A program made the translations under genes and the position numbers. This document shows, in pieces, positions 2,756-19,360 of a stretch of DNA of 34,739 bases; position 1 is the first letter of the stretch, and every line of letters begins with the position of its first letter. Below the pieces are notes generated by a model. It did not search any database. It was not told the DNA's origin and saw only the letters and a list, made by a program, of their open reading frames with translations. Source of the stretch: Nitratireductor indicus C115. Its GTDB lineage: Bacteria > Pseudomonadota > Alphaproteobacteria > Rhizobiales > Rhizobiaceae. The stretch spans positions 1-34,739 of the forward strand of contig NZ_AMSI01000022.1 of NCBI RefSeq assembly GCF_000300515.1. The letters are read 5' to 3'.

Positions 2756-2786
2756 AAGCTGGCATCTCTGGTAGCTAGAGGGTCAA
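2756..2786 (-). promoter_or_regulatory. MerR-type promoter of HMA-lspA
   Basis: On the minus strand: -35 TTGACC (2786-2781), a 19-bp spacer (2780-2762) and a weak -10 CAGCTT (2761-2756). The spacer holds the dyad CTCT-N7-AGAG (CTCTAGCTACCAGAG), placed as in ZntR/CadR/PbrR promoters. It shares TTGACCCTCTAGC with the promoters at 19279-19309 and 19330-19360 and nearly so with 8081-8111. Confidence 0.7.
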
Positions 2787-2910
2787 TAGCCATACCTCAG
2801 ATTTTCTGCCTGACTTGACGCCTCTGGAGAATTGGCGTTTTCAAGCTTGCTCGTCTTTCCGTGCCTTCGGGCGATATGCGGGTGTAATCTAGACGGTCAG
2901 GAACGTCCTC

Positions 2911-3408
2911 ATGCTCTCTCTGCGGCTTCGATCTCAGTTGGCCGGTATTGCTATCGTCCTTGTGGCGGAAGGCGCGGCGATAGCCATGCCCACCGGCGTC
3001 TTCTTGCTCCATCCCGGCAACACGGCCCCCAGCGGAGCCGATTGTCGCAGTCTATCGGCCCGCGTGCGACCCTCCGTCGAAAAGGCAGAAGCATGGTACT
3101 GGGGACGCGCGCCTTTCGGCTCGGAGATGGAGTTCTACCTGTTCCTTAGTAAAACCAGGATGGAAACGACATTTTCGGCCGAAGGCGACTACGACACCGG
3201 AGAGCTTCGCAATCTGCAAACGAGAGGCGACAAGACGACGTTTGAGCTGGTGCCCGACGATCATCCGGCCCAAGTCGTAAGCGGATGGATCGAGCAGAGC
3301 CGCGACGGCTCAGTGCTTTCCGTTACGCTACATGACGTTCCCACGATCGCCGCCGAAATGGACCGCACTACCTATTACTGCAGCTTCGATGCGGGCACGC
3401 AAATCTGA
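2911..3408 (+). CDS. Unknown exported protein
   Basis: 165 residues, not recognised. The N-terminus (RLRSQLAGIAIVLVAEGAAI) has a basic start and hydrophobic core like a signal peptide or N-terminal anchor, so a periplasmic location is likely. Two cysteines (in SGADCRSLS and in TYYCSFDA near the C-terminus) could form a disulfide. The middle part is rich in beta-prone, acidic sequence without a motif I can name. AGGA lies 8 bases before the ATG. It converges on the MerR gene (stop codons 3 bases apart), so the two are not co-transcribed. Its position among metal and envelope genes suggests but does not show a related role. Confidence 0.6.
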   Translation: MLSLRLRSQLAGIAIVLVAEGAAIAMPTGVFLLHPGNTAPSGADCRSLSARVRPSVEKAEAWYWGRAPFGSEMEFYLFLSKTRMETTFSAEGDYDTGELRNLQTRGDKTTFELVPDDHPAQVVSGWIEQSRDGSVLSVTLHDVPTIAAEMDRTTYYCSFDAGTQI

Positions 3409-3411
3409 CCG

Positions 3412-3825
3412 TCAGTGTTCGGTCATGCAGAGATCGTGATTGGCGAGCGATCTGATGACGTAGCAATCCTTCATATGGCCGTCGTGACAGGTGCCGACCA
3501 TCCGGGTGAGTTCGCGCTCGAGCTGCTGAAGTCGGCCGATCTTGTCACGAACCATCTTCAGCTGGCGTGCGGCAATCTGGTCGGCATCCTTGCACGGGCG
3601 TTCCGGATGAGCGCTAAGATCGAGGAGTTCGCGGATAGCCTCAATAGTAAAGCCGAGGTCGCGCGCATGCTTGATGAACGCCAGGCGCTCCCGGTCCGAC
3701 GTTTCGAACCGGCGCTGGTTGCCCTCCGTCCGGTCTGCGGGTTTCATCAAGCCCATTTCCTCGTAGTACCGTATAGTCGGCACCTTTACCCCGGTCTGCT
3801 TCGACAGCTCTCCGATCGTCAGCAA
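3412..3825 (-). CDS. MerR-family regulator, ZntR/CadR-like
   Basis: 137 residues from a TTG start that has AAGGAG 8 bases upstream and gives the normal family N-terminus MLTIGELSKQTGVK; upstream ATG codons (3870, 3894) would add an atypical leader. The winged HTH is clear (TIGELSKQTGVKVPTIRYYEEMGL and NQRRFETSDRERLAFIKHARDLGF), followed by a long dimerisation helix and a metal loop. Cys78 (ERPCKD), Cys113 (GTCHDGH), Cys121 (KDCYVI) and Cys133 (HDLC) match the spacing of ZntR-like Zn/Cd/Pb sensors; Cys113-x7-Cys121 plus several His would suit a borderline metal. Such proteins twist promoters with 19-20 bp spacers, of which this window has four. It is divergent from the PCuAC-like gene. Confidence 0.88.
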   Translation of the reverse strand: MLTIGELSKQTGVKVPTIRYYEEMGLMKPADRTEGNQRRFETSDRERLAFIKHARDLGFTIEAIRELLDLSAHPERPCKDADQIAARQLKMVRDKIGRLQQLERELTRMVGTCHDGHMKDCYVIRSLANHDLCMTEH

Positions 3826-3980
3826 AGCTAACACTCCTTGCTCCAAGTTTCTCTCTCCCTCCAGAGACATGCTATCCCTATCTTCCTGCAACACGACAAA
3901 TGGTCCTCCCAGTTGAACAATTTGTGATCACTTTCACTCAACCCGCACCTGTATCGTGAACGTCATTCGGACAGAGACTC

Positions 3981-4490
3981 ATGAAGCCAAAATTACATCT
4001 TCTCCTCTTGGCCGTGGTCGCGGTGCCCAGCATCACCGTTGAAGGCAGCGCACGGGAAATCCTGGTCTCGCACGAGAATTCGGTGAAAATGCTCCAGATC
4101 GAGCATGCCGAGGTGCTCATCTCTTCTTCAAATACGTCGTTGCGGACGATGTATCTGACAATATGGAACGGGACGACCTCCTCAGAAAACCTGATCGGTG
4201 TTGAAAGCGACAGCTTTACCGGCGTCACGGTCTTCAGAAATACCTTCGGCCGTCGTGAGCGAATGAATAACGTCCTGACGATTCCTGCCCATGCCGAGCT
4301 CAAGATGGTGGAACCGGGAGTTCATCTGGCGCTTGACGGATTTGTCGCCAATCCGCTTCAGCCGAACACCATGCCGCTCACATTACGGTTCGAACGCAGC
4401 GGCTCCATCACGGTAAACGCAAAAATTGTGCAGGACAGGAGCGAGCTGACCCACCACCGTCATGGCGAACAAGATACTCCATCCGAGTGA
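3981..4490 (+). CDS. Degenerate PCuAC-like copper chaperone
   Basis: 169 residues with a signal peptide (KPKLHLLLLAVVAVPSITVEG) and one PCu(A)C (DUF461) domain: TMYLTIWNGTTSSENLIGVE, then FTGVTVFRNTF, then IPAHAELKMVEPGVHLAL and ANPLQPNTMPLTLRFERSG. PCuAC proteins carry Cu(I) in the periplasm to cytochrome oxidases using a His/Met set. Here the first histidine (normally in a VELHET-like strand) is replaced (VTVFRNT), while the Met-rich turn and the VEPGVHL histidine are kept; a His-containing tail (LTHHRHGEQD) might compensate. Copper binding is therefore uncertain. It is divergent from the MerR gene with 155 bp between them; no CTCTAG box was found there. Confidence 0.75.
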   Translation: MKPKLHLLLLAVVAVPSITVEGSAREILVSHENSVKMLQIEHAEVLISSSNTSLRTMYLTIWNGTTSSENLIGVESDSFTGVTVFRNTFGRRERMNNVLTIPAHAELKMVEPGVHLALDGFVANPLQPNTMPLTLRFERSGSITVNAKIVQDRSELTHHRHGEQDTPSE

Positions 4491-4641
4491 CACTCGATGA
4501 CCGAAGCCGGTCGGTAAACACAAGACTAAATAACACAGGCAGATTTTCGAGGTATTTGAATTTAATTTATCATATTGATTTTATTTGATTTTTCCCAGTG
4601 CTGCGTAGATTCTCTCCATCAACAGTCGGGGAGACAGGACA

Positions 4642-5292
4642 ATGAGGACTATCTGGGGCACGGCAATTGCCTTTCTCATGCTTTGCTCGGCAGCGGTGGC
4701 AAGTGCGGCGCATTACAACCCAACACAAGCCGATCGTCCCAACATGCGGACGTTCGGGACGACCTCAATGCCGTATGGCTATTATGATTATTGTCAGCGT
4801 TACAAGGATCGATGCGCGCGCCGGGCGGGAGGGACGATGGTCGAACTCACACGCTCCGCATGGAGCAACATCGTCCGCATCAATGCTGAAGTGAATAGCA
4901 TTCCAGCCTTGACAGATATGGAAATCTACGGCGTTGAGGAGTTCTGGGAATACCCGACGAGCGCAGCAGATTGCGAAGATTACGCACTTCTCAAACGCCA
5001 GCGTCTAAACGAAATCGGCTATCCGCTGGGCGCACTGCTGCTCACCACCGCACGAGATGCCAAAGGCGGCGGCCATGCGGTACTCACGGTCGTGACATCT
5101 CTGGGTGACTTCATCCTCGACAATCTCGAACAGAAAGTACTGCTTTGGAGCGATGCGAAGATTTACTTCCTGAAGCGTCAGTCCCAGCGGAACCTCAACC
5201 AGTGGGTAAGCCTACGCACCGACGAAGAATTTCTTATATCTTCCGGTAACAACCATGCGCCTTCAACCGCTGCCACGAGCGTGAACAGGTAA
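4642..5292 (+). CDS. BTLCP transglutaminase-like cysteine peptidase (LapG-like)
   Basis: 216 residues with a cleavable signal peptide (IAFLMLCSAAVASAA). The catalytic triad of peptidase family C93 is readable: Cys111 in SAADCEDYALLKRQRL, His145 in GGGHAVLTVV and Asp160 in DFILDNLEQKVLLW. This family includes LapG, the periplasmic protease that releases surface adhesins under c-di-GMP control; a diguanylate cyclase lies at 27612, but no LapD-like receptor is in the window. Length is typical. GGGGAGACAGGACA precedes the ATG. The upstream 150 bases are AT-rich and probably hold the promoter. Substrate here is unknown; it could instead act on a cell-wall or lipoprotein target. Confidence 0.88.
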   Translation: MRTIWGTAIAFLMLCSAAVASAAHYNPTQADRPNMRTFGTTSMPYGYYDYCQRYKDRCARRAGGTMVELTRSAWSNIVRINAEVNSIPALTDMEIYGVEEFWEYPTSAADCEDYALLKRQRLNEIGYPLGALLLTTARDAKGGGHAVLTVVTSLGDFILDNLEQKVLLWSDAKIYFLKRQSQRNLNQWVSLRTDEEFLISSGNNHAPSTAATSVNR

Positions 5293-5423
5293 ACCGCGAA
5301 GCCTCCGTAGATCATCTCCATGGTGTTATGGCCGAGGCCCACACATACCAGCGCGAAAACCAGCGTCAGAACGGAGTAGGCGGCGGCACCCGCGGCGAAG
5401 AAGGAAAATATGAAAAGCGACAT
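5178..5423 (-). CDS. Small two-helix membrane protein (hypothetical)
   Basis: 81 residues, not recognised. Two hydrophobic stretches (FIFSFFAAGAAAYSVLTLVF and MIYGGFAVYLFTLVAAVEGAW) flank a short loop with GLGHN, and a basic tail (VRRLTHWLRFRW) would sit in the cytoplasm. The composition is convincingly that of a membrane protein rather than random antisense sequence. Its 3' end overlaps the 3' end of the BTLCP peptidase gene by 115 bases, head to head on opposite strands. No strong ribosome site is seen. It follows another small membrane ORF (5509-5688) on the same strand. Confidence 0.45.
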   Translation of the reverse strand: MSLFIFSFFAAGAAAYSVLTLVFALVCVGLGHNTMEMIYGGFAVYLFTLVAAVEGAWLLPEDIRNSSSVRRLTHWLRFRWD

Positions 5424-5508
5424 GAACTGGACCGCTGTCTCCCGAGACTGCGGTCCATTGTTTCACAGCAGAATGGAGCCGGCCATTCAAGGCCGTGTGA
5501 TACAGATG

Positions 5509-5688
5509 TTATTCTGGCGTCGATACCGCTGCGGGAAGGCGCGTCTCGGCCTGAATATGATACAGGCTGAAGCTGAACACCGCGGCAATGAAAAGGACGA
5601 GCCCCAGAAGCACGACCATGTTCATTTTTGATCGGCGGCGTGTGATTCGCAGCGTTTCTGCACTAGTCAGATGGTCCAATCTCTTCAC
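5509..5688 (-). CDS. Small single-helix membrane protein (hypothetical)
   Basis: 59 residues from a GTG start: MKRLDHLTSAETLRITRRR, then the hydrophobic helix MNMVVLLGLVLFIAAVFSF, then a short outer tail ending AVSTPE. A basic cytoplasmic N-terminus followed by one transmembrane segment is a typical small inner-membrane protein. An internal ATG at 5625 would give a 38-residue form. It lies 85 bases upstream of the two-helix ORF on the same strand, so the pair may be an operon filling the 5293-5880 gap. No clear Shine-Dalgarno site. Confidence 0.45.
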   Translation of the reverse strand: MKRLDHLTSAETLRITRRRSKMNMVVLLGLVLFIAAVFSFSLYHIQAETRLPAAVSTPE

Positions 5689-5880
5689 CGTTCTAAATTA
5701 TCTTCAGGCCCGCAAGCAGGGTTGCTCCCTTTAAACCCCAACTGACGCGAGCAACAGGAGGGTCGATGCGGTGATGTGTCGCTCGCGAATTCGTCAGACG
5801 CAACCGGCCGTTAACTATGCTAGCAACAGAATAAGGATGGTGTTCTCTGCCGCTCCGAGGCTCGGATCTGGTTCTGTTTC

Positions 5881-6888
5881 ATGTTCTACGCGTTAAAAGC
5901 AATGTCCGTCGGCCTTCTTGCCATTTCACTCAGCGGTTGCGTCTCGAGTGTGCTGGATGTCGACAACAAGGCTTCCCAGCCTATTCCGGCCTTGCTGGTC
6001 GCCGAGATGTCGAGAAAGTCGATGTCTCCCTCTTCGCCGATCCTTGTTCGCATTTTCAAACAGGAGAGCGAGCTGGAAATATGGAAGCAGGATCGCACCG
6101 GCAAATATGCTCTCCTGAAAACATACCCGATGTGCCGATGGTCCGGGAAACTCGGCCCGAAGACCCGTGAAGGCGACCGTCAGGCGCCGGAAGGCTTTTA
6201 CCACGTCAATGCGGGAATGCTGAACCCCACCTCCCAATATTACCTGTCTTTCAATCTCGGCTATCCGAACCGGCTTGAAGCGGCACTGGGGTATTCGGGC
6301 GACGCCCTGATGGTGCACGGCGCCTGCACCTCCTCGGGATGCTATGCGCTAACCGATGATGGGGTCGCCGAGATCTACGCCGTCGCGCGCGAGGCTTTGA
6401 AGGGCAGCCAACAGTCCTTTCAGGTTCAGGCTTTTCCCTTCCGCATGACGCCGCAAAATATGGCGAAGCATCGTGATGACCCCAACTTTGCGTTCTGGAC
6501 CGACCTGAAGCGCGGCTACGACAGCTTCGAGGTAACGCGTCGCCAGCCCAGGATTTCGCATTGCGGCGGTCGATATGTCGTGGACACAGAGTTTGAGGCC
6601 GGCGAGCCGCGCAATCCACTTGCTGCCTGTCCACCGGCCGTCAACCAGTCTCATCCGGCGATAGCCGATCGTACGCAAACCGATTTACGACAGGCAGACA
6701 TGCTGGTTTCGAGCGGGAGTGCGCTGTCAGCTCATTCTTACGTAGACGGTGGGATGCATCCGAGCTTTCGCAGGCTACTGAAACGGAATGGTCAGGATGC
6801 GCTTGCGAAGCGAACATCGCCGCGGTCTTCTGTGCCCGTCAGTCGGCCCGACGCAGCGCTCGCGGACCCGCATTCTCCGGACGAGTAA
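5881..6888 (+). CDS. YafK/DpaA-like L,D-transpeptidase-fold lipoprotein
   Basis: 335 residues. A lipobox (LLAISLSGC, Cys at about 20) marks a lipoprotein. The YkuD-fold domain covers about residues 50-215: ILVRIFKQESELEIWK, KTYPMCRWSGKLGPKTREGD and APEGFY, then the catalytic motif with His146 and Cys154 (MVHGACTSSGCYALTD). This motif is that of the YafK branch, whose characterised member DpaA cuts murein-lipoprotein links; classical L,D-transpeptidases have a longer His-Cys spacing. A 100-residue low-complexity C-terminal tail follows, without a recognised domain. It would anchor peptidoglycan editing at a membrane; LspA in this window is a plausible processing enzyme. The next ORF starts 5 bases after the stop. 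Confidence 0.85.
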   Translation: MFYALKAMSVGLLAISLSGCVSSVLDVDNKASQPIPALLVAEMSRKSMSPSSPILVRIFKQESELEIWKQDRTGKYALLKTYPMCRWSGKLGPKTREGDRQAPEGFYHVNAGMLNPTSQYYLSFNLGYPNRLEAALGYSGDALMVHGACTSSGCYALTDDGVAEIYAVAREALKGSQQSFQVQAFPFRMTPQNMAKHRDDPNFAFWTDLKRGYDSFEVTRRQPRISHCGGRYVVDTEFEAGEPRNPLAACPPAVNQSHPAIADRTQTDLRQADMLVSSGSALSAHSYVDGGMHPSFRRLLKRNGQDALAKRTSPRSSVPVSRPDAALADPHSPDE

Positions 6889-6893
6889 CGGAC

Positions 6894-7226
6894 ATGTTGC
6901 GTGGTTTTCTGTCACTGCTGGTCGCCCTGTTGTTGACCCTGCATTTGAGCGCTGCAGCGTCCATCGCGGCACCGGCAACAGACGGTCGCAGCCTGGTTTC
7001 ATCAGATCTCTTCATAAATACTGGAGAAAGCTCCGAAATCTCTGCGGTCGACGACAACAATCCCGCACCGGAACCCCTCCCTTCATCCTGTCACGATCAT
7101 TGCGCCAAACTGATGGCCTACACCGCATATCCCTCGGTGCCAACAACTGTCGAACCATGCAGGGATTTTGGCGAGTTCCGCTTGGAGTCAGCCGGCGTTT
7201 CCGGCTTACTCCGACCTCCCCGATAG
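6894..7226 (+). CDS. Small exported Cys/His protein (hypothetical)
   Basis: 110 residues, not recognised. A clear signal peptide (FLSLLVALLLTLHLSAAASIAA) is followed by a short mature part with a CHDHC cluster (PSSCHDHCAKLM) and one more Cys (VEPCRDFG). CHDHC could bind a soft metal or form a disulfide; it resembles short periplasmic proteins found in copper clusters, but I cannot assign a family. It starts 5 bases after the YafK-like gene, so it is likely in the same transcript. No good ribosome site is visible, which fits translational coupling. Confidence 0.55.
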   Translation: MLRGFLSLLVALLLTLHLSAAASIAAPATDGRSLVSSDLFINTGESSEISAVDDNNPAPEPLPSSCHDHCAKLMAYTAYPSVPTTVEPCRDFGEFRLESAGVSGLLRPPR

Positions 7227-7349
7227 CAAGACGCAAGGGGTGTGAATACGACGGCGGGCAAGCCTTTGACCGTCGAGCAATGTATCGCACTTCGCCCTTC
7301 AGTACGACCGCTAATCGCGGCGATATTGTCAGCTATAAGGAGCGAAGCT

Positions 7350-8060
7350 TTGAGCTCGAATTATCAAGACGTGATGCTATCACGTCGCAAACTTCTCACT
7401 GTGGCTGCGGCTGCGACAGCAACTGTGGCTCTACCAGGCTGTGCGACAATCCAGGTTGCGCCAGCCACTCCCGAACCCGAAAAACCCGCTGTAGATGTCG
7501 GATATGCCCGGATGTATGGGGCGATGCCGGAGGAAGATTACCCAATCCCTGCTGTCGATTTAAGCAAGGTGAAGCGTCGCTACTATCGTCAACTCGTCAA
7601 CGATCCGACCGGCGAACGGCCTGGGACGATTGTCGTCGACACCTCCGCATTCCATCTCTATCTCGTGCTGCCCGATGGGAAGGCGATGCGCTACGGCGTA
7701 GGGTTGGGACGTCAGGGTTTTACATGGTCAGGGTCTGGCGTCATTCAGTACAAGCGGCGCTGGCCGCGGTGGACTCCTCCTGAGGAAATGATTGCGCGAC
7801 AACCAGAACTTGAGAAATACAGCGCAGCCAATGGCGGCATGGATCCAGGGCTTAACAACCCGCTCGGTGCACGCGCTCTCTATATTTTCCAGGATGGTGT
7901 GGACACACTTTACCGAATTCACGGCTCGCCAGAATACTGGACCATCGGCAAAGCCGTATCCAGCGGATGCGTCCGACTGATCAACCAGGACATCATCGAC
8001 CTCTACAATCGTGTTTCGACGCCGGCACCCGTGATCGTTCGGGGCGGTTCGACAGCTTAG
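7350..8060 (+). CDS. Tat-exported YkuD L,D-transpeptidase (lipoprotein)
   Basis: 236 residues from a TTG start with AAGGAG 7 bases upstream; the frame is open further up but lacks a comparable start. The N-terminus has twin arginines (LSRRKLLTVAAAATATVA) and a lipobox (LPGC), suggesting a Tat-dependent lipoprotein. The YkuD domain (about 90-232) contains GTIVVDTSAFHLYLVLP, NNPLGARALYIF, YRIHGS (His191), and IGKAVSSGCVRL (Cys207), the complete catalytic set. It makes 3-3 peptidoglycan cross-links or attaches proteins to peptidoglycan in the periplasm. A close relative lies at 9636. The MerR-type promoter for dsbA begins 21 bases after its stop, so the next operon is separate. Confidence 0.9.
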   Translation: MSSNYQDVMLSRRKLLTVAAAATATVALPGCATIQVAPATPEPEKPAVDVGYARMYGAMPEEDYPIPAVDLSKVKRRYYRQLVNDPTGERPGTIVVDTSAFHLYLVLPDGKAMRYGVGLGRQGFTWSGSGVIQYKRRWPRWTPPEEMIARQPELEKYSAANGGMDPGLNNPLGARALYIFQDGVDTLYRIHGSPEYWTIGKAVSSGCVRLINQDIIDLYNRVSTPAPVIVRGGSTA

Positions 8061-8080
8061 ATGTCAGCACGAAAAATCAC

Positions 8081-8111
8081 TTGAACCTCTAGCGGGCAGA
8101 GCTTGTAGCCT
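8081..8111 (+). promoter_or_regulatory. MerR-type promoter of the dsbA-ppiC-ldt-czcO operon
   Basis: -35 TTGAAC (8081-8086), 19-bp spacer (8087-8105) and -10 TAGCCT (8106-8111). The spacer begins CTCTAGCGGGCAGAG, a CTCT-N7-AGAG dyad, and goes on with CTTG before the -10, as in the ccdA promoter. The A in place of C within the -35 is the main difference from the other copies. A start near 8118 would give a 17-base leader with AAAAGGA before the ATG. Confidence 0.75.
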
Positions 8112-8134
8112 CCGGCTTTCAAAAGGATTCACCC

Positions 8135-8767
8135 ATGAAACGTCGCAATTTTCTCATCTGCACTTCAGCCATGGCGCTGGCTTGCGCTGCATCGCCACTG
8201 GCATTTGCACAGCCAACCGAGCAGGAGCTTCTCGTGCCAGGAGCCCTGCCGGACAAGACATTCGGCACCGACGATGCACCTGTAACTATCATCGAATACG
8301 CGTCTCTGACTTGTCCGCATTGCAGAACATTCCATATCGACGTCTGGCCCGGCCTGAAGGAGAAATATGTCGATACCGGAAAGGTGCGCTTCATCATGCG
8401 CGAATTCCCGTTCGACCCGCGCTCCACCGCCGGCTTCATGCTGGCGCGGTGCGCGGGCGACGAAAAGTGGTATCCGACCCTCGACCTTCTTTATCGAACC
8501 CAGGAGACATGGGCCCGCGCCTCAGACGGAACAGGCGCCATGAAATCTGTCATGGGCATGACCGGCATGGACGAAGCCGCGTTCGAAGCATGCCTTCAGA
8601 ATGAGGAACTGATGCAGCAGGTGCAAGCGGTTGCAGAAGTTGGGCGCGGCTTTGGCGTCGATTCCACCCCTACTTTCTTCATCAATGGCAAAATGTACAA
8701 GGGTGCTCTGAGCGTCGCGCAGTTCAGCGACACCATCGATCCGCTGCTTGCAGCGTCGGGCCAGTAG
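8135..8767 (+). CDS. DsbA-family thiol:disulfide oxidoreductase
   Basis: 210 residues with a signal peptide (twin Arg at KRRNFL, cleavage near AFAQP). Thioredoxin fold with an inserted helical domain; the redox pair is Cys60-Pro-His-Cys63 (SLTCPHCRTFH) and the cis-proline loop is DSTPTFFING (Pro179). CPHC is the classic oxidising DsbA sequence. A second Cys pair (MLARCAGDE, EACLQNEE) lies in the helical domain. It would oxidise or rearrange cysteines of exported proteins. First gene of a four-gene operon behind a MerR-type promoter; the parvulin gene starts 12 bases downstream. CcdA at 19366, which can supply electrons to the periplasm, has the same promoter type. Confidence 0.92.
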   Translation: MKRRNFLICTSAMALACAASPLAFAQPTEQELLVPGALPDKTFGTDDAPVTIIEYASLTCPHCRTFHIDVWPGLKEKYVDTGKVRFIMREFPFDPRSTAGFMLARCAGDEKWYPTLDLLYRTQETWARASDGTGAMKSVMGMTGMDEAAFEACLQNEELMQQVQAVAEVGRGFGVDSTPTFFINGKMYKGALSVAQFSDTIDPLLAASGQ

Positions 8768-8779
8768 GGACGCCATCAG

Positions 8780-9646
8780 ATGACAATCTTATTTTCCAAT
8801 TCTTCAAGAAGCCTGCGTCGGATCGCCCTGGCTCTTCTGATGACCACAGCATGTAGTTCGGCATTCGCACAGCCGGAAGACGTTGTCGCCCGCGTGAACG
8901 GTAGCGACATAACACGTGCAGACGTCGCGGTGGCTCAGGAGATGTATGATTCCCAACTCGGGACCATGCCAGACGATGCCAAACTCTCTGTTATCGTCGA
9001 TACGCTGATCGAAATGCGGATCATCTCCGACGCAGCGAAGAAAGCAGGTATCGCAGATCAGGACGAATACAAGCGCCAGATGCAGTTCTTTGAACAGCAG
9101 ACACTGCGGGCCAATTTCATGGAGCAGAAGGCCGCTGAAGCCGTTACCGAAGACGCTATCCGCCAAATCTACGATCAGCAGGTCGCTTCGATACCGGTGG
9201 TTACCGAGCGACGGCTGCGCCATATCCTGGTGGCATCTGAAGACGAGGCGAAGCAGATCATCACTGCTCTCGGAGAAGGTACCTCCTTCGCCGATCTTGC
9301 CGCCAAGAGTTCCCTCGATGCCGTGTCGAAAGTAAACGGCGGAGATTTGGGCTTCGTCCCCGAGGGGCAGACAGTACCGGAAGTCGATGAGGCGGCCAAA
9401 AGGCTGAAGACAGGCGACTACACCAACGAGCCGGTGCGGTCTCCATTCGGGTTTCACGTCATCAAGCTCGAGGAGAGCCGCGATAGGCCGCCACCCGCCT
9501 TCGAGTTGGTCGAACCGCAAATCCGTCAATCTCTGAAGGCTGCCGAAGAACGTCGGATTTCAGCTGAGTTGCGGGCCATAGCAAAGGTCGAGAAGCTCGT
9601 GCCGGATGTTAGGGCTCCGCAGGAGGATGATGGCCATGACCATTGA
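8780..9646 (+). CDS. Periplasmic parvulin peptidyl-prolyl isomerase (PpiC/SurA type)
   Basis: 288 residues with a signal peptide (IALALLMTTACSSAFAQP). A SurA_N-like helical chaperone part (about 28-130, VVARVNGSDITRADVAVAQE onwards) precedes one PPIC rotamase domain (about 140-232): ERRLRHILVASEDEAK, GTSFADLAAKSSLD, NGGDLGFVPEG, SPFGFHVIKLEE. A charged C-terminus ends in HDH. It helps fold exported proteins, including disulfide-bonded ones made by the DsbA homologue just upstream. The last 11 bases overlap the start of the next transpeptidase gene. Confidence 0.92.
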   Translation: MTILFSNSSRSLRRIALALLMTTACSSAFAQPEDVVARVNGSDITRADVAVAQEMYDSQLGTMPDDAKLSVIVDTLIEMRIISDAAKKAGIADQDEYKRQMQFFEQQTLRANFMEQKAAEAVTEDAIRQIYDQQVASIPVVTERRLRHILVASEDEAKQIITALGEGTSFADLAAKSSLDAVSKVNGGDLGFVPEGQTVPEVDEAAKRLKTGDYTNEPVRSPFGFHVIKLEESRDRPPPAFELVEPQIRQSLKAAEERRISAELRAIAKVEKLVPDVRAPQEDDGHDH

Positions 9647-10205
9647 CCGTCGGGCGTTCGGCTTTGGCCTTCTGGCTGCCGCTGCGGGTTCTCTCACGCC
9701 GGTCAGCGCTTTCGCAAATGCTCGACCTGTCAAAATCGAGCAGCGATTTCTGCCCCAACGGGTCAGACACAATTTCACGGAGCCTGTCGGTACCATCATC
9801 GTCGCGCCGCGTGAGCGGTTTCTGTACCTCCTGGAAAGCCCTACGCTGGCACGCCGCTACGGGATAGGGGTGGGTAAAGCCGGGCTGGCGTTCAAGGGCA
9901 GCGCAATTATCGAGCGCAAGGCCAAGTGGCCTTCATGGCGCCCCACACCGAACATGATCAAGCGAGACCCGCAACGTTATGCAAGACACGCAGGCGGCGT
10001 TCCGGGTGGCCCGAATAACCCCCTCGGTGCGCGAGCGCTCTACCTCTATCGAAACGGACGCGACACATATTACCGCATTCATGGAACCAACGAGCCGTGG
10101 ACGATCGGCAAGGCGGTTTCCAACGGATGCATCCGCATGCTCAATGATCACGTCCGGGAACTCTATGAGTTAACGCCCATAGGTACGCGCGTCGTGGTGG
10201 TGTGA
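9636..10205 (+). CDS. Tat-exported YkuD L,D-transpeptidase
   Basis: 189 residues. AGGAGG (9621-9626) precedes three ATG codons (9627, 9630, 9636); 9636 has the best spacing (9 bases) and gives MTIDRRAFGFGLLAAAAGS, a twin-arginine signal. The YkuD domain follows: GTIIVAPRERFLYLLE, NNPLGARALYLYR, YRIHGT (His149) and IGKAVSNGCIRML (Cys165). It is a paralogue of the gene at 7350 but lacks the lipobox, so it should be soluble in the periplasm. It overlaps the parvulin gene and touches the flavoprotein gene (TGATG), so all four are one transcript. Confidence 0.92.
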   Translation: MTIDRRAFGFGLLAAAAGSLTPVSAFANARPVKIEQRFLPQRVRHNFTEPVGTIIVAPRERFLYLLESPTLARRYGIGVGKAGLAFKGSAIIERKAKWPSWRPTPNMIKRDPQRYARHAGGVPGGPNNPLGARALYLYRNGRDTYYRIHGTNEPWTIGKAVSNGCIRMLNDHVRELYELTPIGTRVVVV

Positions 10206-11260
10206 TGAACCGGCACATCCTCGTCATCGGGGCTGGCCAGGCCGGTCTTGCCGCAGGCTACCACCTGCGCAGGGCCGGCCTATCTTACATCATCGTTGAC
10301 GGGAGCAACCGCGTTGGCGATGTCTGGCGTAACCGATATGACAGCCTGACTTTGTTCACCACCCGTCAGTTCAGTGTGTTGCCGGGAATGCAGATTCCGG
10401 GCAACCGGGACGGCTACGCCGATCGCGACGAGTTCGCCGAGTATCTGGAATCTTATGTCCGGCACTTTGAGCTTCCGGTCAAACTCGGGGCACACGTGTC
10501 GCGTCTGGCCAAGTCTGCCGACGGTTTCGAAGCGATGCTCTCAAATGGCGATATCATCTCTGCAACCGAAGTAATAATCGCCACCGGAGCATTTCAGGTT
10601 CCGATCGTTCCCCCCATCTCAGCGGAGTTGGGTTACGAGGTCCTGCAGTTGACGGCGGCAACATTCCGCAACTGCAACCAGTTGCCCGATGGGCCCGTTC
10701 TGGTAGTCGGAGATGGAGCAAGCGGACGCGACATAGCGATTGAATCCAGGAAGCGCCAACCCGTCCTGCTCTCCGCCGGCAAACCGCGAAAGCTTCTACC
10801 GGAACACATTCTGGGAAAGTCGATTTGGTGGTGGCTCAACCTTATTGGCGCATTGGAAGCACCGGCAACATCTTTCCGGGGCCGCATAGTCAGAAAAACC
10901 GACGCTTTCCCGGACAGGGGTTTGCGAGACGAGGCATTGCAGAAGCTCGGTATCCGGCTCATGAGCCGGCTTGTGGGGGCGGAAGCAGATGTCGTGAAGT
11001 TTTCAGACGGCAAACTCGCTCAGGTCCGTACGGTGATCTGGGCTGTTGGCTATCGCGACGAAACCGAATGGGTGGACATCGAAGACGCAGTCCATGCCAA
11101 GACCGGCTTCGTCCACTCAGAAGGCGTGTCTCCGGTTAAGGGCCTCTACTTCCTGGGGAGGCCATGGCAGCGCAATCGCTCTTCCGCTCTGATCATGGGT
11201 GCAGGCCCTGATGCCGCGTCAGTGATCAGGAAACTGAGAACTGATCACGTGCAGGCGTAG
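10205..11260 (+). CDS. CzcO-like FAD/NAD(P)-dependent flavoprotein
   Basis: 351 residues from the ATG sharing one base with the upstream stop. Two Rossmann motifs are readable: the FAD site ILVIGAGQAGLAAGYHLRRA at the N-terminus and the NAD(P) site VVGDGASGRDIAIE about residues 162-175; also DVWRNRYDSLTLFT and IWAVGYRDETEW. This pattern belongs to the CzcO/flavin monooxygenase-like group, often annotated near metal genes as a K+ transport flavoprotein, whose true reaction is unsettled. Its stable linkage to DsbA, parvulin and L,D-transpeptidase suggests a redox role, but it has no export signal and is cytoplasmic. Confidence 0.85.
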   Translation: MNRHILVIGAGQAGLAAGYHLRRAGLSYIIVDGSNRVGDVWRNRYDSLTLFTTRQFSVLPGMQIPGNRDGYADRDEFAEYLESYVRHFELPVKLGAHVSRLAKSADGFEAMLSNGDIISATEVIIATGAFQVPIVPPISAELGYEVLQLTAATFRNCNQLPDGPVLVVGDGASGRDIAIESRKRQPVLLSAGKPRKLLPEHILGKSIWWWLNLIGALEAPATSFRGRIVRKTDAFPDRGLRDEALQKLGIRLMSRLVGAEADVVKFSDGKLAQVRTVIWAVGYRDETEWVDIEDAVHAKTGFVHSEGVSPVKGLYFLGRPWQRNRSSALIMGAGPDAASVIRKLRTDHVQA

Positions 11261-13815: not shown

Positions 13816-15503
13816 GCCGTCTCTCCGCCCTACGCCCCGTGCTCGCCCTGTTCTGGGCCGGTGACCGCCGCATGCTCGTCTATGGCACCCTGCTGTCTTT
13901 CACCACAGCACTTGCCGGCATTGCTTTGCTCGGGCTGTCCGGCTGGTTCATCGCCGCAACGTCGATCGCAGGCCTCACTCTCATCACGGCGCTCACTTTC
14001 GACGTGTTCATGCCGTCCGCCGGCATCCGCCTTCTTGCCATAGGCCGCACCGCCTCGCGCTACGGCGAAAGGCTTGTCACCCACGACGCCACGCTAGGCG
14101 TGCTGGCTCACCTGCGCGAGCACGTGTTTCGCGGGTTCGCCCGTGCCGACGCAGCACGTGGTCTGGCCGCCAACCCGTCACGGCTCCTGTTTCGGCTCAC
14201 CATCGATATCGACGCCCTCGATTCGCTTTACCTGCGGGTGCTGGCGCCCGTGCTCGTCGCAGCCGGCGCAGCCCTGGCCATCGCAGCCGCGCTCGTTTTC
14301 GTCCACCCCTTGCTCGGCCTTTCCTCCGCCATCGTCCTGCTGGCCGCGGGCCTTGGTATTCCGTTTCTCGCCTCTCGCCGCGCTGCAGCATTCGCCCGCC
14401 TCCGCGCCCACGCGTTAGAGGCCCTGCGGTCGCGCTCCATCGACCTCGTGCGGGGACAGGCCGACCTTGCCATGACGAATCGTCTTGGCGCGCAGGTTCG
14501 TGCCATCGAAGCCGCAGACATTCGTCTGGCCCAAGCCGACCGCGCGCTTAATCGTGCCGAGGCCGGTGCGGGCTTCGGTCTCGGCATTCTATCCGCAGCC
14601 CTGCTCGCCGGCGTCTTGCTTGCAGCCGCCTTCCTTGCCGAAGCCGGCACCATCGGCGTACCAATCGCCACTTTTGCCGTGCTGCTGGCGCTTGCCAGCC
14701 TGGAACCCTTCGCGCTCCTGCGCCGCGGCGCGGTCGAGTTCGGCCGCACACTTCAGGCGGCAACGCGCCTCGGCCCGCGCCTGACGAACCGCTCAGACCC
14801 ACCTAAGCTCGGCCGTTCCGCAGCACATGGCATGGCGATCAGGCTGGAGTCTGTAAGCGTCGGCCATCCCGGCGCGGCGCGTTCGGTCCTGTCCGACATT
14901 TCCGTCGCCATCCGCCCCGGCGAACGCATCGCACTGGTGGGTGCGAGCGGAGTTGGCAAATCCACGCTTCTATCGCTGTTAGCCGGAGAACTGAACGCTT
15001 CAAGCGGCAATCTCACTGTCCATCCCTGTGGCCTGCTCACCCAGCGCACTGAGCTTTTCCGCGACACGCTGCGTGGCAATCTCGCGCTCGCCCGCCCCGG
15101 CGCATCCGATACCGAAATGATAGCGGCGCTCGAAGCTGCGGGTCTGGCAAGCTATGTCGCATCTCTGCCCGGCGGTCTCGACACGATACTCGGCGAGGGC
15201 GGTGCCGGGCTTTCCGCTGGTCAGGCGCGCCGTCTGGCGCTTGCTCGCCTGCTGTTGCGCGATGCGGCCCTCTGGCTGCTCGACGAGCCGACAGAAGGCC
15301 TCGACGGTAACACTGCACGTGACGTGGTCGCGCGCCTCGATGAACGCGCCACCGGCCGCATCCTGGTCGTCGCCACCCACACACGCCGCGAGGCGTCGCT
15401 TGCCGACCGTATCCTCGTGCTGCGTGACGGCCGCATCGCCGCCGACGTTGCCCGCGGCACACCCGCCTTTGACATGGAACTCAGCCAGCTGAGGCCCGAT
15501 TGA
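13812..15503 (+). CDS. cydC: Heterodimeric thiol-exporting ABC transporter subunit CydC
   Basis: 563 residues: membrane domain (about 10-310) with LLGLSGWFIAATSIAGL near its start, a frequent CydC feature, then the ATPase domain. Walker A is VGASGVGKSTLLSLLAG (near 376), signature LSAGQARRLALARLL (near 466) and Walker B ALWLLDEPTEGLDGN (near 487). It pairs with CydD to move reduced thiols outward, keeping heme and cysteines of the periplasm reduced for cytochrome bd assembly. The stop is 21 bases before cydA. Confidence 0.95.
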   Translation: MSRLSALRPVLALFWAGDRRMLVYGTLLSFTTALAGIALLGLSGWFIAATSIAGLTLITALTFDVFMPSAGIRLLAIGRTASRYGERLVTHDATLGVLAHLREHVFRGFARADAARGLAANPSRLLFRLTIDIDALDSLYLRVLAPVLVAAGAALAIAAALVFVHPLLGLSSAIVLLAAGLGIPFLASRRAAAFARLRAHALEALRSRSIDLVRGQADLAMTNRLGAQVRAIEAADIRLAQADRALNRAEAGAGFGLGILSAALLAGVLLAAAFLAEAGTIGVPIATFAVLLALASLEPFALLRRGAVEFGRTLQAATRLGPRLTNRSDPPKLGRSAAHGMAIRLESVSVGHPGAARSVLSDISVAIRPGERIALVGASGVGKSTLLSLLAGELNASSGNLTVHPCGLLTQRTELFRDTLRGNLALARPGASDTEMIAALEAAGLASYVASLPGGLDTILGEGGAGLSAGQARRLALARLLLRDAALWLLDEPTEGLDGNTARDVVARLDERATGRILVVATHTRREASLADRILVLRDGRIAADVARGTPAFDMELSQLRPD

Positions 15504-15524
15504 CATGACCCACCGGAGCCAGAA

Positions 15525-17102
15525 ATGGAACTGAACATCGTCGACCTGTCGCGACTGCAATTCGCCATCACCGCGCTGTACCACTTCCTTTTCGTGCCGC
15601 TCACCATCGGCCTGTCGATCCTGATGGCGATAATGGAGACGGTCTACGTCATGACCGGCCGTGACATATGGCGCCAGATGACCAAGTTCTGGGGCACCCT
15701 GTTCGGTATCAACTTCGTGCTCGGTGTCGCCACCGGCATCGTGATGGAGTTCCAGTTCGGCATGAACTGGAGCTACTACAGCCACTATGTCGGCGATATA
15801 TTCGGCGCGCCGCTGGCCATCGAAGGCCTGATGGCCTTCTTCCTTGAAGCCACCTTCGTCGGCCTGTTCTTCTTCGGATGGGACAAGCTGTCGAAGCTCG
15901 GACACCTCGCCGCGACATGGGCCGTGGCGCTCGGCTCCAACTTTTCCGCCCTGTGGATCCTCATTGCTAACGGATGGATGCAGAACCCGGTCGGATCCGT
16001 CTTCAACCCGCAGACCATGCGCATGGAGGTGGAGGACTTCTACGCCGTACTTTTCAACCCCGTTGCGCAGGCCAAGTTCGTTCACACCGTGTCGGCGGGC
16101 TATGTCGTTGCATCCATTTTCGTTCTGGGCGTCTCGGCGTGGTATCTGCTGAAGGGCCGACACATCGCGCTCGCCAAGCGCTCGATGACCGTCGCGGCTT
16201 CGTTCGGACTGGCCTCGTCGCTATCGGTCGTGGTGCTGGGCGACGAAAGCGGGTATCTCTCCACCGAACACCAGAAGATGAAGCTCGCGGCCATCGAGGC
16301 GATGTGGCACACTGAGCCGGCCCCGGCCGCCTTCACAATCGTCGGCCTGCCCGATCAGGCCGAGCGTAAGACTTATTACTCCGTCCAGGTTCCATGGGTC
16401 ATGGGCCTGATTGGCACCCGCTCGCTGACAACGGAAATTCCCGGTATCCACGAACTAGTCGAACTGGCCGAGATGCGGATCCGGCAGGGCATCATGGCTT
16501 TTGATGCACTCCAGTCGATCCGAGAGGCCGGCAGCAGCGCGGCCATACCCGCCGACGTCGCTGACCGTTTTGAGGATACCGGCCACTATCTCGGCTACGC
16601 GCTGCTGTTGCGGCCCTACCTCGATGACCCGCGCGAGGCGACGGATGAACAGATCACCCAGGCTGCGTGGGATACGGTTCCCAATGTTCCGACGTTGTTC
16701 TGGTCCTTCCGGATCATGGTCGGGCTCGGGATGTTCTTCATCGTCCTCACGGCCACCTTCTTCTACCTGTCGGCGCGCCACCAGCTCGATCGCTATCCGT
16801 GGCTGTTGAAAGTCGCCGTCTTCTCGATCCCGCTGCCGTGGATTGCAGCCGAGGCGGGGTGGATCGTCGCCGAGGTCGGGCGCCAGCCATGGGTGATCGA
16901 GGGCGTTCTGCCAACGGCCGCCGCCGTCTCCGATCTGGGCGCGACGACAGTGCTGTTCACCATCGCCGGCTTCGCGGCCATCTACACCGTGCTGTTCATC
17001 ATCGAGATGACGCTGATGCTCGCCGCGATCCGCAAAGGCCCCGAAGAAGACCACGAGCCGGAGCAGAAACTCCTGGCCGAAGCGCTCAAACCCGCGGAGT
17101 GA
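15525..17102 (+). CDS. cydA: Cytochrome bd ubiquinol oxidase subunit I
   Basis: 525 residues, full length. Heme ligands can be placed by homology: His20 (TALYHFLF, b595), His187 ([12 protein letters not shown]) and Met398 ([10 protein letters not shown]), the b558 pair. The quinol (Q) loop is long, including the segment around [18 protein letters not shown] and [12 protein letters not shown], as in the E. coli L-type enzyme rather than the short-loop CIO type. [18 protein letters not shown] is the conserved GRQPW signature. The enzyme oxidises quinol and reduces oxygen at high affinity without pumping protons, and resists sulfide, NO and some metal stress. GGAG lies 8 bases before the ATG. 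Confidence 0.96.
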
Positions 17103-17107
17103 CCATC

Positions 17108-18265
17108 ATGATCCTGCACGAACTCATCGACTACGAGACCCTGCGCCTGATCTGGTGGATGCTGCTGGGCATCCTCATCATCGGCTTCGCTGTGATGGAC
17201 GGCTTCGACCTCGGCACCCAGACGTTGCTGCCCTTCGTGGCACGCACCGATATGGAGCGCCGCGTCGTCATCAACGCCGTCGGCCCGGTCTGGGAAGGCA
17301 ATCAGGTCTGGCTCATCCTCGGCGGCGGCGCGATCTTCGCCGCATGGCCGCCGCTCTATGCGGTGTCTTTCTCCGGCTTCTATCTCGCGATGTTCGCCAT
17401 CCTCGCCGCTCTCATCCTGCGCCCGGTCGGCTTCAAGTACCGGTCGAAGCGCGACAGCCAGCGCTGGCGTGACGGCTGGGACTGGGCGCTCTTCGTGGGC
17501 GGGATCGTGCCGGCGCTTATCTTCGGCATCGCCGTCGGCAACGTGCTTCAGGGCGTGCCTTTCCGGCTCGGTCCCGATCTGCGCATCTTCTATGACGGCA
17601 CCACCCTGTTCGAACTGCTCAACCCGTTCGCGCTGCTCTGCGGCCTGCTCTCCGTCGTCATGCTGACGATGCACGGCGCGTCGTGGCTGGTGCTCAAGAC
17701 CAGCGGCGCAGTCGCCGACCGCGCCCGTCGCTTCGGCACATTCGCCGCGACGGGCACGATCATTTTGTTCGCGCTCGGTGGCCTTTGGGTCGCAACCGGC
17801 ATCGATGGTTTCCGTTTCGTCTCGGAGGTCGTCACCGACGGCCCATCCAACCCGCTCACCAAGACGGTCGAGCAGGGTGCCGGTTTCTGGTTCACCAACT
17901 ACACCGCCCATCCATGGATGATTGCCGCACCCGCCCTCGGCTTTGCCGGCGCGCTGCTGGCGCTGGGGTTCCTGGCTCTGCGCCGCGAATTGCTGACGCT
18001 GCTGTCGAGCGGCCTGTCGGTGCTCGGAATCATCGCCACTGTCGGTCTGGCGATGTTTCCTTTCATCCTACCCTCCTCGATAGACCCGCGCTCCAGCCTC
18101 ACTGTCTGGGACGCCTCGTCCAGCCACCTGACGCTGTTCATCATGCTGCTCTCGACAGGAATCTTTCTGCCGATCATCGCGCTCTACACCACGTGGGTCT
18201 ACCGCGTGCTGTGGGGGAAGGTGGACGAAAAGCAGATCATCGACGGCTCCGGCCACGCCTATTGA
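17108..18265 (+). CDS. cydB: Cytochrome bd ubiquinol oxidase subunit II
   Basis: 385 residues from the ATG 5 bases after the cydA stop; a much longer open frame upstream is only an overlap with cydA. Starts [20 protein letters not shown], the normal CydB opening, with [19 protein letters not shown], then [25 protein letters not shown], and a C-terminal [17 protein letters not shown]. Eight to nine membrane segments. It partners CydA and supports heme binding. An imperfect palindrome follows the stop, then cydX. Confidence 0.96.
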
Positions 18266-18270
18266 GGCGC

Positions 18271-18313
18271 ATCGGGCCGAAAAGCGGGAAACCGATTTTC
18301 GGTTGAACCCGAT
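18271..18313. repeat. Rhizobial-type intergenic palindrome between cydB and cydX
   Basis: Nested inverted repeats: ATCGGG at 18271-18276 pairs with CCCGAT at 18308-18313, and CCGAAAA at 18277-18283 pairs with TTTTCGG at 18296-18302. The core (CCGAAAAGCGGGAAACCGAT) resembles a palindromic unit scattered between genes in Rhizobiales. It could attenuate transcription or protect the cydAB mRNA and lower cydX output. Confidence 0.6.
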
Positions 18314-18340
18314 ACGCAAGCAAAAGAAAGGAGAACCATC

Positions 18341-18439
18341 ATGTGGTATTTCGCCTGGCTGCTCGGCCTGCCGCTCGCCGCTGCCTTCGCCGTCCTTAAC
18401 GCCATGTGGTACGAATTGATGGAAGACAATGAGAAATAG
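18341..18439 (+). CDS. cydX: Cytochrome bd small subunit CydX
   Basis: 32-residue protein with the family signature MWYFAWLLGLPLAAAFAVLN, one transmembrane helix and the ending WYELMEDNEK. CydX/YbgT binds the CydAB complex and stabilises its heme d/b595 site. AAAGGAG stands 7 bases before the ATG, a better site than most in the operon. It ends the cyd operon. Confidence 0.93.
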   Translation: MWYFAWLLGLPLAAAFAVLNAMWYELMEDNEK

Positions 18440-18529
18440 GATGCATCGTCTTGAACGACTTTACCAGTCAGCGCCGATTAAGTCCCGGCGGAATTATGAG
18501 GAAATATGCGCAGTGCGAAAGCGCACAAC

Positions 18530-19228
18530 CTAGAGATATCTAGCAAGCGGTATAATGATGCCCAACATGATCGGCTGGTGCAGCAGGTAAATTGTCAAAC
18601 TGTGCCGGCCCATACAGGCCAGCGCGTTGCCGGGCCGACCGACCGGCACGAGGCGGTCGAGCGCGTATTCTTTCCCTTTGTCGACCAGAACTTTTGCGCC
18701 GGACATACCGATGAAAGTAATGCCAACCCACGGGAAGATCGGCACGAAATCGTTGCTCGGCGGAACGCTTTGCGCAAATCCGATCCAGGCAAGCCATCGT
18801 GTGTCAAAGAGTTCCGACTGCCATAAGGAAGGAGCCGCCAGCATGGCAAGGCCAAAAGCAAGACTTAGCCACCAAGGCGTGCGCTGGAATAATGTACCAA
18901 CTAAGGTCGCAACGGCAATCGCATGCAAGATGCCAAAGTAAATGAACGTTGCTGGAAAGGCATACCATGTAACCAGTGTAATGGCCGCGGCCGCGACGCC
19001 AATTTTCGCAAGGCGACGCAGATAGGCACTCGGCCGGAACGGAGAGCGAGAGGATAAGGCAAGGCTGATCCCGACCAGCATCATGAAGCTTCCGGCTAGA
19101 ACACGCCCAAAGCCGAGCCAGAGTGGATGGTATGCGACACCTGAAATGAAACCAGTAAATTCGAGGTCCCACACAAAGTGGAACAGCACTACGCCGGCAA
19201 TTGCCAGACCGCGCCACGCATCGACCAT
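18530..19228 (-). CDS. DUF1624 (heparan-alpha-glucosaminide N-acetyltransferase-like) membrane protein
   Basis: 232 residues from the ATG at 19228. DUF1624 pattern: VDAWRGLAIAGVVLFHFVWD at the start with the conserved Asp, Arg and His, then HPLWLGFGRVLAGSFMMLVG, LHAIAVATLVGTLF and the C-terminal GRHSLTIYLLHQPIM. About seven to eight hydrophobic segments. The family resembles acyltransferases that move an acyl group across the membrane; the substrate here is unknown, possibly an envelope glycan. In-frame codons continue upstream (RRSDIETIARVY) and the only strong ribosome site (GAGGAG) stands 7 bases before an in-frame ATC, so a longer product from a rare start is possible. Driven by the MerR-type promoter at 19279-19309. 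Confidence 0.82.
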   Translation of the reverse strand: MVDAWRGLAIAGVVLFHFVWDLEFTGFISGVAYHPLWLGFGRVLAGSFMMLVGISLALSSRSPFRPSAYLRRLAKIGVAAAAITLVTWYAFPATFIYFGILHAIAVATLVGTLFQRTPWWLSLAFGLAMLAAPSLWQSELFDTRWLAWIGFAQSVPPSNDFVPIFPWVGITFIGMSGAKVLVDKGKEYALDRLVPVGRPGNALACMGRHSLTIYLLHQPIMLGIIIPLARYL

Positions 19229-19278
19229 ATAAACACGGGCTATTGTCTCGATATCGCTTCTCCTCTCCGCAAAAACAT

Positions 19279-19309
19279 TTTGTAAGAGCTCATCCCGCTA
19301 GAGGGTCAA
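19279..19309 (-). promoter_or_regulatory. MerR-type promoter of the DUF1624 gene
   Basis: Minus strand: -35 TTGACC (19309-19304), 19-bp spacer (19303-19285) starting CTCTAGCGGGATGAG, and -10 TACAAA (19284-19279). It mirrors the ccdA promoter. Confidence 0.78.
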
Positions 19310-19352
19310 GATGTCGCTGCTTCAGCGCATTGACCCTCTAGCGGGATGAGCT
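19287..19352. repeat. Perfect 23-bp inverted repeat carrying two divergent promoters
   Basis: 19287-19309 is the exact reverse complement of 19330-19352, with a 20-base spacer. Each arm covers one complete -35 box plus operator, so two regulator dimers could bind face to face. The exact identity implies strong selection or recent duplication. Confidence 0.85.
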
Positions 19353-19360
19353 TGTATACG
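19330..19360 (+). promoter_or_regulatory. MerR-type promoter of ccdA (leaderless)
   Basis: -35 TTGACC (19330-19335), 19-bp spacer (19336-19354) and -10 TATACG (19355-19360). The ATG of ccdA is at 19366, 5 bases after the -10, where transcription should begin; the message would be leaderless. Confidence 0.8.

Follow-up and report, generated by a model that had tools for sequence, protein, structure and literature searches.

The stretch of DNA analysed here (the window) comprises positions 1 to 34,739 of contig NZ_AMSI01000022.1 (C22) of Nitratireductor indicus C115 (GCF_000300515.1; genome 4.99 Mb). It carries a gene for a MerR-family metal sensor and, at four places, an operator box of one type, which stands before genes for a stand-alone heavy-metal-associated (HMA) protein and the signal peptidase LspA, before a dsbA-ppiC-ldt-FMO gene group, before a DUF1624 gene and before ccdA (Table 1). 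MerR-family regulators act as metal-bound dimers that distort the DNA of an over-long spacer and thereby allow transcription. In what follows, C denotes contigs of the source genome, G genomes and L fetched loci.

Four operator-promoters of one type

The first-pass annotation had reported four boxes of the same type, and a pattern scan of the window recovered all of them where it had placed them; the genes it had described downstream were borne out by translation and Pfam. At 4/4 sites the box lies inside a spacer of 19 bp, and the mark of MerR-family activator promoters, a spacer of 19-20 bp holding a dyad, is thus present at each. The -10-like hexamers that it had also read look plausible for dsbA (TAGCCT), ccdA (TATACG) and DUF1624 (TACAAA), while that of HMA-lspA is poor.

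The motif TTGAMCYTCTAGC has four exact copies in the window. At up to two mismatches it has 10 window matches against a mean of 1.43 in shuffled sequence, and 0/100 shuffles reached 10. A genome-wide search, as the first-pass annotation had suggested, returned five exact matches to the longer pattern TTGAMCYTCTAGCNNNNNGAG, namely the four window sites and C36:7862-7882. At up to two mismatches the genome holds 19 matches and the backwards-read control also 19; these weak matches are therefore noise, and weight is given only to exact or near-exact sites. Scanning 106 fetched loci (1.86 Mb) for the box plus TA gave 18, 19, 35 and 50 matches at 0, 1, 2 and 3 mismatches against 0, 0, 0 and 7 for the reversed pattern, in a set where some loci were chosen for having a box and several are near-identical. 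Shuffles, reversed-pattern controls and the order- and family-wide scans described below lead us to reject a chance motif. Judged by these sequence comparisons, the predicted MerR-type operator-promoters of the window are confirmed as real and conserved.

Table 1. Coordinates of the regulator, the promoter sites and the associated genes in the window
Feature	Position	Strand	Basis or remark
Transposase gene	787-1839		Pfam rve; adjoins lspA at left end of window
lspA, signal peptidase II	1928..2401	-	Pfam Peptidase_A8; TIGR00077 121.6 bits, above cut-off
Stand-alone HMA protein, 68 aa	2501..2707	-	Pfam HMA 50 bits; hand translation
MerR-type operator-promoter of HMA-lspA	2756..2786	-	TTGACC, CTCTAGCTACCAGAG, 19-bp spacer, weak -10 CAGCTT; same sequence in L097, L175
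MerR-family metal sensor, CadR/PbrR/ZntR-like, putative ligands C78, C113, C121	3412..3825	-	Pfam, NCBIfam, alignments
MerR-type operator-promoter of dsbA-ppiC-ldt-FMO	8081..8111	+	54 bp before dsbA start
dsbA, DsbA-like periplasmic thioredoxin	8135..8767	+	Pfam Thioredoxin_4, DSBA
ppiC, PpiC/SurA-like peptidylprolyl isomerase	8780..9646	+	Pfam
ldt, L,D-transpeptidase (YkuD)	9606..10205	+	Pfam
FMO, flavin-dependent oxidoreductase (czcO of the first-pass annotation)	10202..11260	+	Nearest NCBIfam models below cut-off
DUF1624/HGSNAT_cat membrane acyltransferase-like protein	18530..19228	-	Pfam HGSNAT_cat 228 bits
MerR-type operator-promoter of DUF1624/HGSNAT	19279..19309	-	-10 TACAAA
MerR-type operator-promoter of ccdA	19330..19360	+	Back to back with DUF1624 promoter
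ccdA, DsbD-type transmembrane thiol carrier	19366..20103	+	Pfam DsbD_TM 59.7 bits

Further metal and thiol genes adjoin these features at 20134-27039 (a CDF exporter, an Nramp transporter, an iron-dependent-repressor-type, MntR-like regulator, a multicopper oxidase and a glutaredoxin-MauE fusion), and none of them has a box at up to two mismatches. Toward the right end, with coordinates 29309-30477, 30714-32177 and 32209-33843, there are a transposase gene (HTH_Tnp_1), an Arm-DNA-binding, integrase-type open reading frame and a resolvase-type recombinase gene.

An efflux pump with the same operator

The fifth exact box, on C36, directly precedes a P1B ATPase of 749-758 aa with an N-terminal HMA domain; an exact operator thus stands before a metal exporter, as expected of an efflux regulon with a P1B or CDF target. 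The protein exceeds the cut-offs of TIGR01525 (584 vs 346 bits) and TIGR01512 (513 vs 313.5 bits) and stays below those of the ZntA equivalogs, so that by its models the predicted product is a ZntA/CadA-type P1B efflux ATPase. It also passes, narrowly, the cut-off of the copper-ATPase subfamily (TIGR01511, 412 vs 397 bits), and the metal of this pump is therefore not settled by the models. One-mismatch boxes precede two further ATPases of the genome, on C6 and C21.

Relatives place this pump close to the window genes. A 10-kb stretch of a metagenome-assembled genome (MAG) named Mesorhizobium (L175) holds window 1920-3595 at 100% and C36 5187-12169 at 99.99% identity; its HMA-lspA and pump boxes, at 810 and 7486, lie 6.7 kb apart. 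The same order is found in a Stappia MAG (L097), at 93% and 98% identity. In one Stappia MAG the module recurs in near-identical form on three contigs (L096, L097, L098), which reflects either genuine repetition or a mixture of strains. We infer that C36 adjoins C22 in the source genome, and the transposase gene beside lspA fits an insertion or an assembly break at the left end of the window. The pump is absent from the four targets because the edge of the window excludes its box. We had also considered the HMA protein as the stump of a deleted ATPase; this was dropped, as L097 and L175 have HMA-lspA together with an ATPase that carries a box of its own.

The first-pass annotation had concluded that none of the targets encodes an efflux pump and had proposed a regulon dedicated to envelope repair. 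None of the four window boxes does lead into a pump gene, and within the window the statement stands, but it fails genome-wide: the fifth exact box precedes a P1B ATPase, linked in cis to HMA-lspA in L175 and L097, the near-exact boxes on C6 and C21 precede two more, and P1B and CDF exporters are the commonest classified targets in relatives (see below). We therefore find a dedicated envelope-repair regulon without metal efflux scarcely tenable.

Distribution of the box and of its MerR clade

Across the order, 5/249 genomes have the exact box, at 13 places in total against 5 for the reversed control. Each of the five also belongs to the set of 53 genomes that encode a MerR at E<=1e-40, in agreement with the first-pass view that the boxes are MerR-type promoters that go with this MerR or its homologues; in one of them, G116, box and MerR lie on different contigs. 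Another, G146, is a second full instance, with a MerR 92% identical to that of the window and five exact boxes, which precede an ATPase gene, dsbA, DUF1624 (two copies) and ccdA. In its first ccdA copy (L080:6169-7784) the box is kept and the gene ends at insertion-like sequence 78% like the left transposase region of the window; the second copy alone was counted.

A parent form of the box, TTGNNNCTCTAGYNRCTAGAGNNNNTA, in which the dyad is perfect, is much more widespread: at up to one mismatch it occurs at 111 places in 93/249 genomes of the order (control 16 places), and 77/111 places are divergent from, and within 150 bp of, a MerR homologue. In 29 of the 111 this neighbour is a MerR at E<=1e-40, and 3 more places adjoin one on the same strand. 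The first-pass annotation had set one finding against its own proposal, the box in relatives without this MerR, and to the letter this does occur, as 49 genomes without a MerR at E<=1e-40 hold 58 parent-form places. Yet in 48/58 cases (44 genomes) the gene of a more distant MerR lies divergently at no more than 150 bp, as counted over the best 62 of 128 MerR rows, the other 66 rows giving none that adjoins the ten remaining boxes. The box therefore belongs to a MerR clade and not to one protein.

Scans of two families extend this picture. In the family of G250 the exact form was found at 54 places in 49/297 genomes, all control columns being zero, and in the family of G146 a looser form at 40 places in 24/87 genomes (control 8 places). 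A megablast of window 1900-20110 against plasmids gave 71 records, and the 20 listed were matches to cytochrome bd or CydCD genes, bar one unannotated.

The footprint of the box was measured as the box-anchored mean pairwise identity against three flanking blocks, in alignments where some rows are close relatives. For dsbA (8 copies) the box identity is 0.77 against 0.41, 0.37 and 0.44 in the flanks, and the distance from box to start codon is 54-56 bp across these copies. The values are 0.89 against 0.48, 0.52 and 0.48 for DUF1624 (5 copies), 0.90 against 0.64, 0.59 and 0.41 for PCuAC (3 copies) and 0.82 against 0.30, 0.39 and 0.29 for the ATPase (11 copies). Together with G146 and the fetched loci, the dsbA and DUF1624 footprints uphold the earlier description of the envelope genes as targets, since they recur in relatives.

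The DUF1624 and ccdA promoters of the window form a 23-bp perfect inverted repeat (19287-19309 / 19330-19352, separated by 20 bp), and the paired sites at 19287-19352 could on this account be taken for one hairpin, a terminator or a repeat, instead of two promoters. DUF1624 and ccdA diverge, so no terminator is expected between them; moreover, the two arms in G146 differ from each other and both keep the box elements and their spacing, and in L104 and L105 only one box precedes DUF1624. The probability that we leave to a hairpin is close to negligible.

Targets of the box in relatives

A survey of the loci from L034 onward and of the window gave 175 distinct boxes at up to two mismatches, duplicates being dropped by a 100-base key. 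Targets were classified by the best blastx match to a small reference set (the window, its genome and a few fetched loci), and some of these matches are weak (26-39% for CDF, 26-33% for PCuAC). On this basis P1B ATPases of the C36 or C6 type (56) and CDF exporters (21) are the commonest classified targets, followed by DsbA-like proteins (7), DUF1624 (6), glutaredoxin-MauE (Grx-MauE) fusions (5), zf-TFIIB proteins (4), and PCuAC, murein L,D-transpeptidase and response regulators (3 each), CcdA (2), HMA (1) and CopA (1). Six boxes face MerR itself and 57 are unclassified, 16 of them being the opposite-strand reading of a palindrome. Boxes before Grx-MauE and CopA, and part of those before zf-TFIIB, could be operators of different MerR-type regulators.

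The 54 places in the family of G250 reduce to 46 distinct boxes by a 70-base key. These precede a P1B ATPase (26), a CDF exporter (6), a response regulator (4), DsbA (2), HMA followed by an ATPase (1) or an unclassified gene (7). On the same strand and within 4.5 kb past the ATPase lie homologues of PCuAC in 5 cases, of L,D-transpeptidase in 3, of LspA in 1 and of DUF1624 in 1, as a matter of gene order only.

Plasmids carry the box as well, some targets here being taken from the plasmid annotation. A relaxed scan of five plasmid stretches returned 21 sites against 0 for reversed patterns. On three plasmids, those of Pseudorhizobium, Sinorhizobium sp. M14 and Agrobacterium, a murein L,D-transpeptidase gene that diverges from this MerR is preceded by a box with 1-2 mismatches; in the latter two a short hypothetical open reading frame lies in between. 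The Agrobacterium plasmid (L188) has in addition paired boxes at 6799 (-) and 6896 (+) between SCO and DsbB genes, and a box at 19623 (-) before a phosphoethanolamine-lipid A transferase gene.

These plasmids also bear on the idea that the boxes of the envelope genes are hitchhiking copies on a mobile island, without a regulatory role. The island has indeed the look of a mobile element: the window has transposase genes at either end (Pfam rve, HTH_Tnp_1), the recombinase and integrase-like genes lie at the right, and near-identical DNA is present in MAGs named Stappia and Mesorhizobium. But the dsbA and DUF1624 boxes are kept while their flanks diverge, and the plasmids show the box before L,D-transpeptidase three times and as a pair facing SCO and DsbB once. 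Mere hitchhiking is in our opinion very improbable.

Two other observations were made in the course of the survey. A response regulator gene is preceded by the box at L034:13930, L184:12572 and L185:17572 and in L238, L275, L289 and L301, where L034 equals L185 at this site and L301 is seemingly the same plasmid as L184; in L184 a gene annotated as an ATP-binding protein follows. Such an arrangement could put a two-component system under the control of a MerR sensor. The second concerns a further 19-bp-spaced site near TTGAACCTCAACCTGCTCGAGGTCCTAC, present at L036:12093 (+), L081:19203 (-), L097:13498 (-) and L185:2450 (+). It precedes a zf-TFIIB protein in L081, L097 and L185, with a DsbA-family gene following on L185, and may belong to another MerR-type regulator.

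The MerR regulator

The window MerR has the make-up of a sensor, with an N-terminal MerR helix-turn-helix, a MerR-DNA-bind domain (Pfam MerR_1, MerR and MerR-DNA-bind) and cysteines for a predicted metal site. It is not placed in a named subfamily by the models: its best NCBIfam match, the CadR-PbrR equivalog TIGR02047, scores 105 bits, below the cut-off of 151.45, and the ZntR equivalogs NF007069 and TIGR02043 score 104.9 and 94 bits, below 143 and 167.95. In an alignment of 85 rows, 73 of them distinct, C78 and C121 are present in all 85 and C113 in 83; they align with the cysteines of CadR that we take to be its metal ligands. This points to Zn, Cd or Pb as the likely inducer. A C-terminal H130-C133-H137 is also kept, in 81, 79 and 56 of the 85 rows, the rest being mostly gaps. 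The corresponding H-x2-C-x3-H pattern (residues 130-137) lies where the alignments with solved structures end, or beyond, and may form a second metal site.

Relation to known systems

MerR-family operators in spacers of 19-20 bp, CadR/PbrR sites and several CueR targets are described in the parts of PMC1526738 covered here. The CadR/PbrR and ZntR regulons presented there resemble ours in the MerR sensor, the palindrome in a 19-bp spacer and the P1B ATPase or CDF target, and the pbr locus includes a predicted signal peptidase, PbrC, as lspA is among the targets here (PMC1526738). According to the same parts they usually form a divergon, whereas the island regulator is not divergent from its targets (PMC1526738). 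CueR regulons, as far as these parts and those of PMC6907878 go, likewise join one MerR-family sensor to dispersed or non-pump targets, but CueR is a copper sensor with other operators and targets (PMC1526738; PMC6907878). Unlike the CadR/PbrR and ZntR regulons, the present system has several separate promoters with DsbA, CcdA, DUF1624 and L,D-transpeptidase targets, and its MerR lies below the cut-off of every NCBIfam model matched.

Brucella belongs to the same bacterial order as the source organism. The covered parts of PMC10800456 report that Brucella ZntR binds the intergenic region and activates zntA under zinc excess. The two systems share a MerR-family regulator and inverted repeats beside a Zn/Cd P1B ATPase, a likeness by description; one pump target is described there, unlike the multi-promoter system here (PMC10800456, same parts).

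A parallel to the envelope targets comes from RNA-seq of Mesorhizobium STM 2683 and STM 4661 (PMC3668242, in the parts covered). The log2 changes with Zn/Cd are 3.07/2.2 and 5.32/3.38 for CadA, 3.04/2.17 and 4.07/2.22 for CcdA, and 1.64/0.65 and 1.85/0.69 for LspA, whose Cd change is not significant (PMC3668242). The ccdA gene lies downstream of cadA, and CadA alone gives less than maximal resistance (PMC3668242). A P1B ATPase and its neighbour CcdA thus go up with Zn/Cd and LspA with Zn, and thiol-disulfide proteins are likewise induced in STM 4661; the parts of the study covered name no regulator or operator for the CadA, CcdA and LspA genes (PMC3668242). In the open-licence literature, no paper describing a box-linked envelope regulon was found among the matches listed.

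A probable metal-responsive regulon with an envelope branch

Taken together, it is likely that the four sites are activator promoters of one metal-responsive MerR regulon on an apparently mobile metal-resistance island, with a pump core and an envelope extension. The best reading is a CadR/ZntR-like efflux regulon extended to envelope functions, in which the sensor probably switches on cell-envelope maintenance genes too. The boxes, their spacing, their rarity in the genome, their conservation, their association with the MerR clade and the pump with the same box have direct support in the DNA itself; from these we infer the binding of the window MerR to the boxes, the inducing metal and the protective role of the envelope genes. 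The unusual part is the multi-promoter envelope branch, which few genomes in the families searched possess, and 'envelope repair' is used here as a hypothesis.

Several observations weigh against this interpretation. The -10 of HMA-lspA (CAGCTT) is poor, and in the right half-sites of the window boxes between 1 and 3 of the 7 bases do not fit the parent palindrome: 1 for HMA-lspA, 2 for dsbA, 3 for DUF1624 and ccdA. The corresponding counts are 2 for the C36 pump, 0 and 1 for the C6 and C21 pumps and 2 for the C21 response regulator. As these counts overlap, a clean split of pump and envelope operators was rejected, and graded operators are therefore not claimed as shown. For ccdA and the response regulator (3 copies each), box and flanks are conserved to much the same degree, so that these two comparisons say little. 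Multi-box genomes are few, only G146 (6) and G325 (11), the latter apparently a MAG with repeated copies, having at least 3 matches in the G146 family. As for the Mesorhizobium study, DsbA has 0 occurrences in the text, and no L,D-transpeptidase, DUF1624 or peptidylprolyl isomerase was seen in its two tables (PMC3668242, in the parts covered).

The remaining points concern which regulator is at work. No box adjoins the window MerR gene or its promoter, and neither in the window nor on the G146 island is the regulator divergent from its main target. The genome also encodes MerR paralogues with 71% (C21) and 56% (C3) identity, which share 28/38 and 24/38 residues with the window MerR over residues 3-40 and could use the same sites. 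The operators would then be real MerR operators, served by the C21 or C3 paralogue or by several regulators together, the window MerR being one of several inputs. On the other hand, a window-type MerR accompanies the exact island boxes in G146 and in both the Stappia and the Mesorhizobium MAG, its gene being truncated by the contig end in the Mesorhizobium MAG, and the C21 paralogue (L034:10359-10769) has N in place of C113, so that its metal site may differ. We consider action by paralogues unlikely.

Proposed mechanism and significance

Under the regulon that we favour, a CadR/ZntR-like dimer on the over-long 19-bp spacer would keep RNA polymerase inactive as long as metal is lacking. Binding of a thiophilic divalent metal, most likely Zn, Cd or Pb, to C78/C113/C121 would make the dimer distort and untwist the spacer and so turn transcription on. 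The core output would be the P1B-type efflux ATPase (on C36; in the near-identical sequence of a relative it lies within a few kb of HMA-lspA). Through the same operator at further island promoters, HMA-lspA, dsbA-ppiC-ldt-FMO, DUF1624 and ccdA, pump and envelope genes would come on together. The exported metal, on reaching the periplasm, would attack thiols and exported proteins, and the extra genes would sustain periplasmic thiol redox, protein folding, lipoprotein maturation and peptidoglycan cross-linking.

More tentatively, one cytosolic divalent-metal sensor may directly couple export to periplasmic maintenance (thiol redox by CcdA/DsbA, lipoprotein processing by LspA, peptidoglycan cross-linking by L,D-transpeptidase), with operators of different symmetry setting different metal thresholds and the whole circuit moving as an island; we see this broader scheme as possible, though rather doubtful.

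Efflux shifts metal from cytoplasm to periplasm, and little is known of how the envelope is then protected. Were one sensor to set both, metal export would be linked in a testable way to maintenance of envelope thiols and of the cell wall. The box offers a motif for finding more members of the regulon, and, if true, the regulon described here suggests a regulatory reason for the presence of lspA, ccdA and dsbA homologues in metal-resistance islands.

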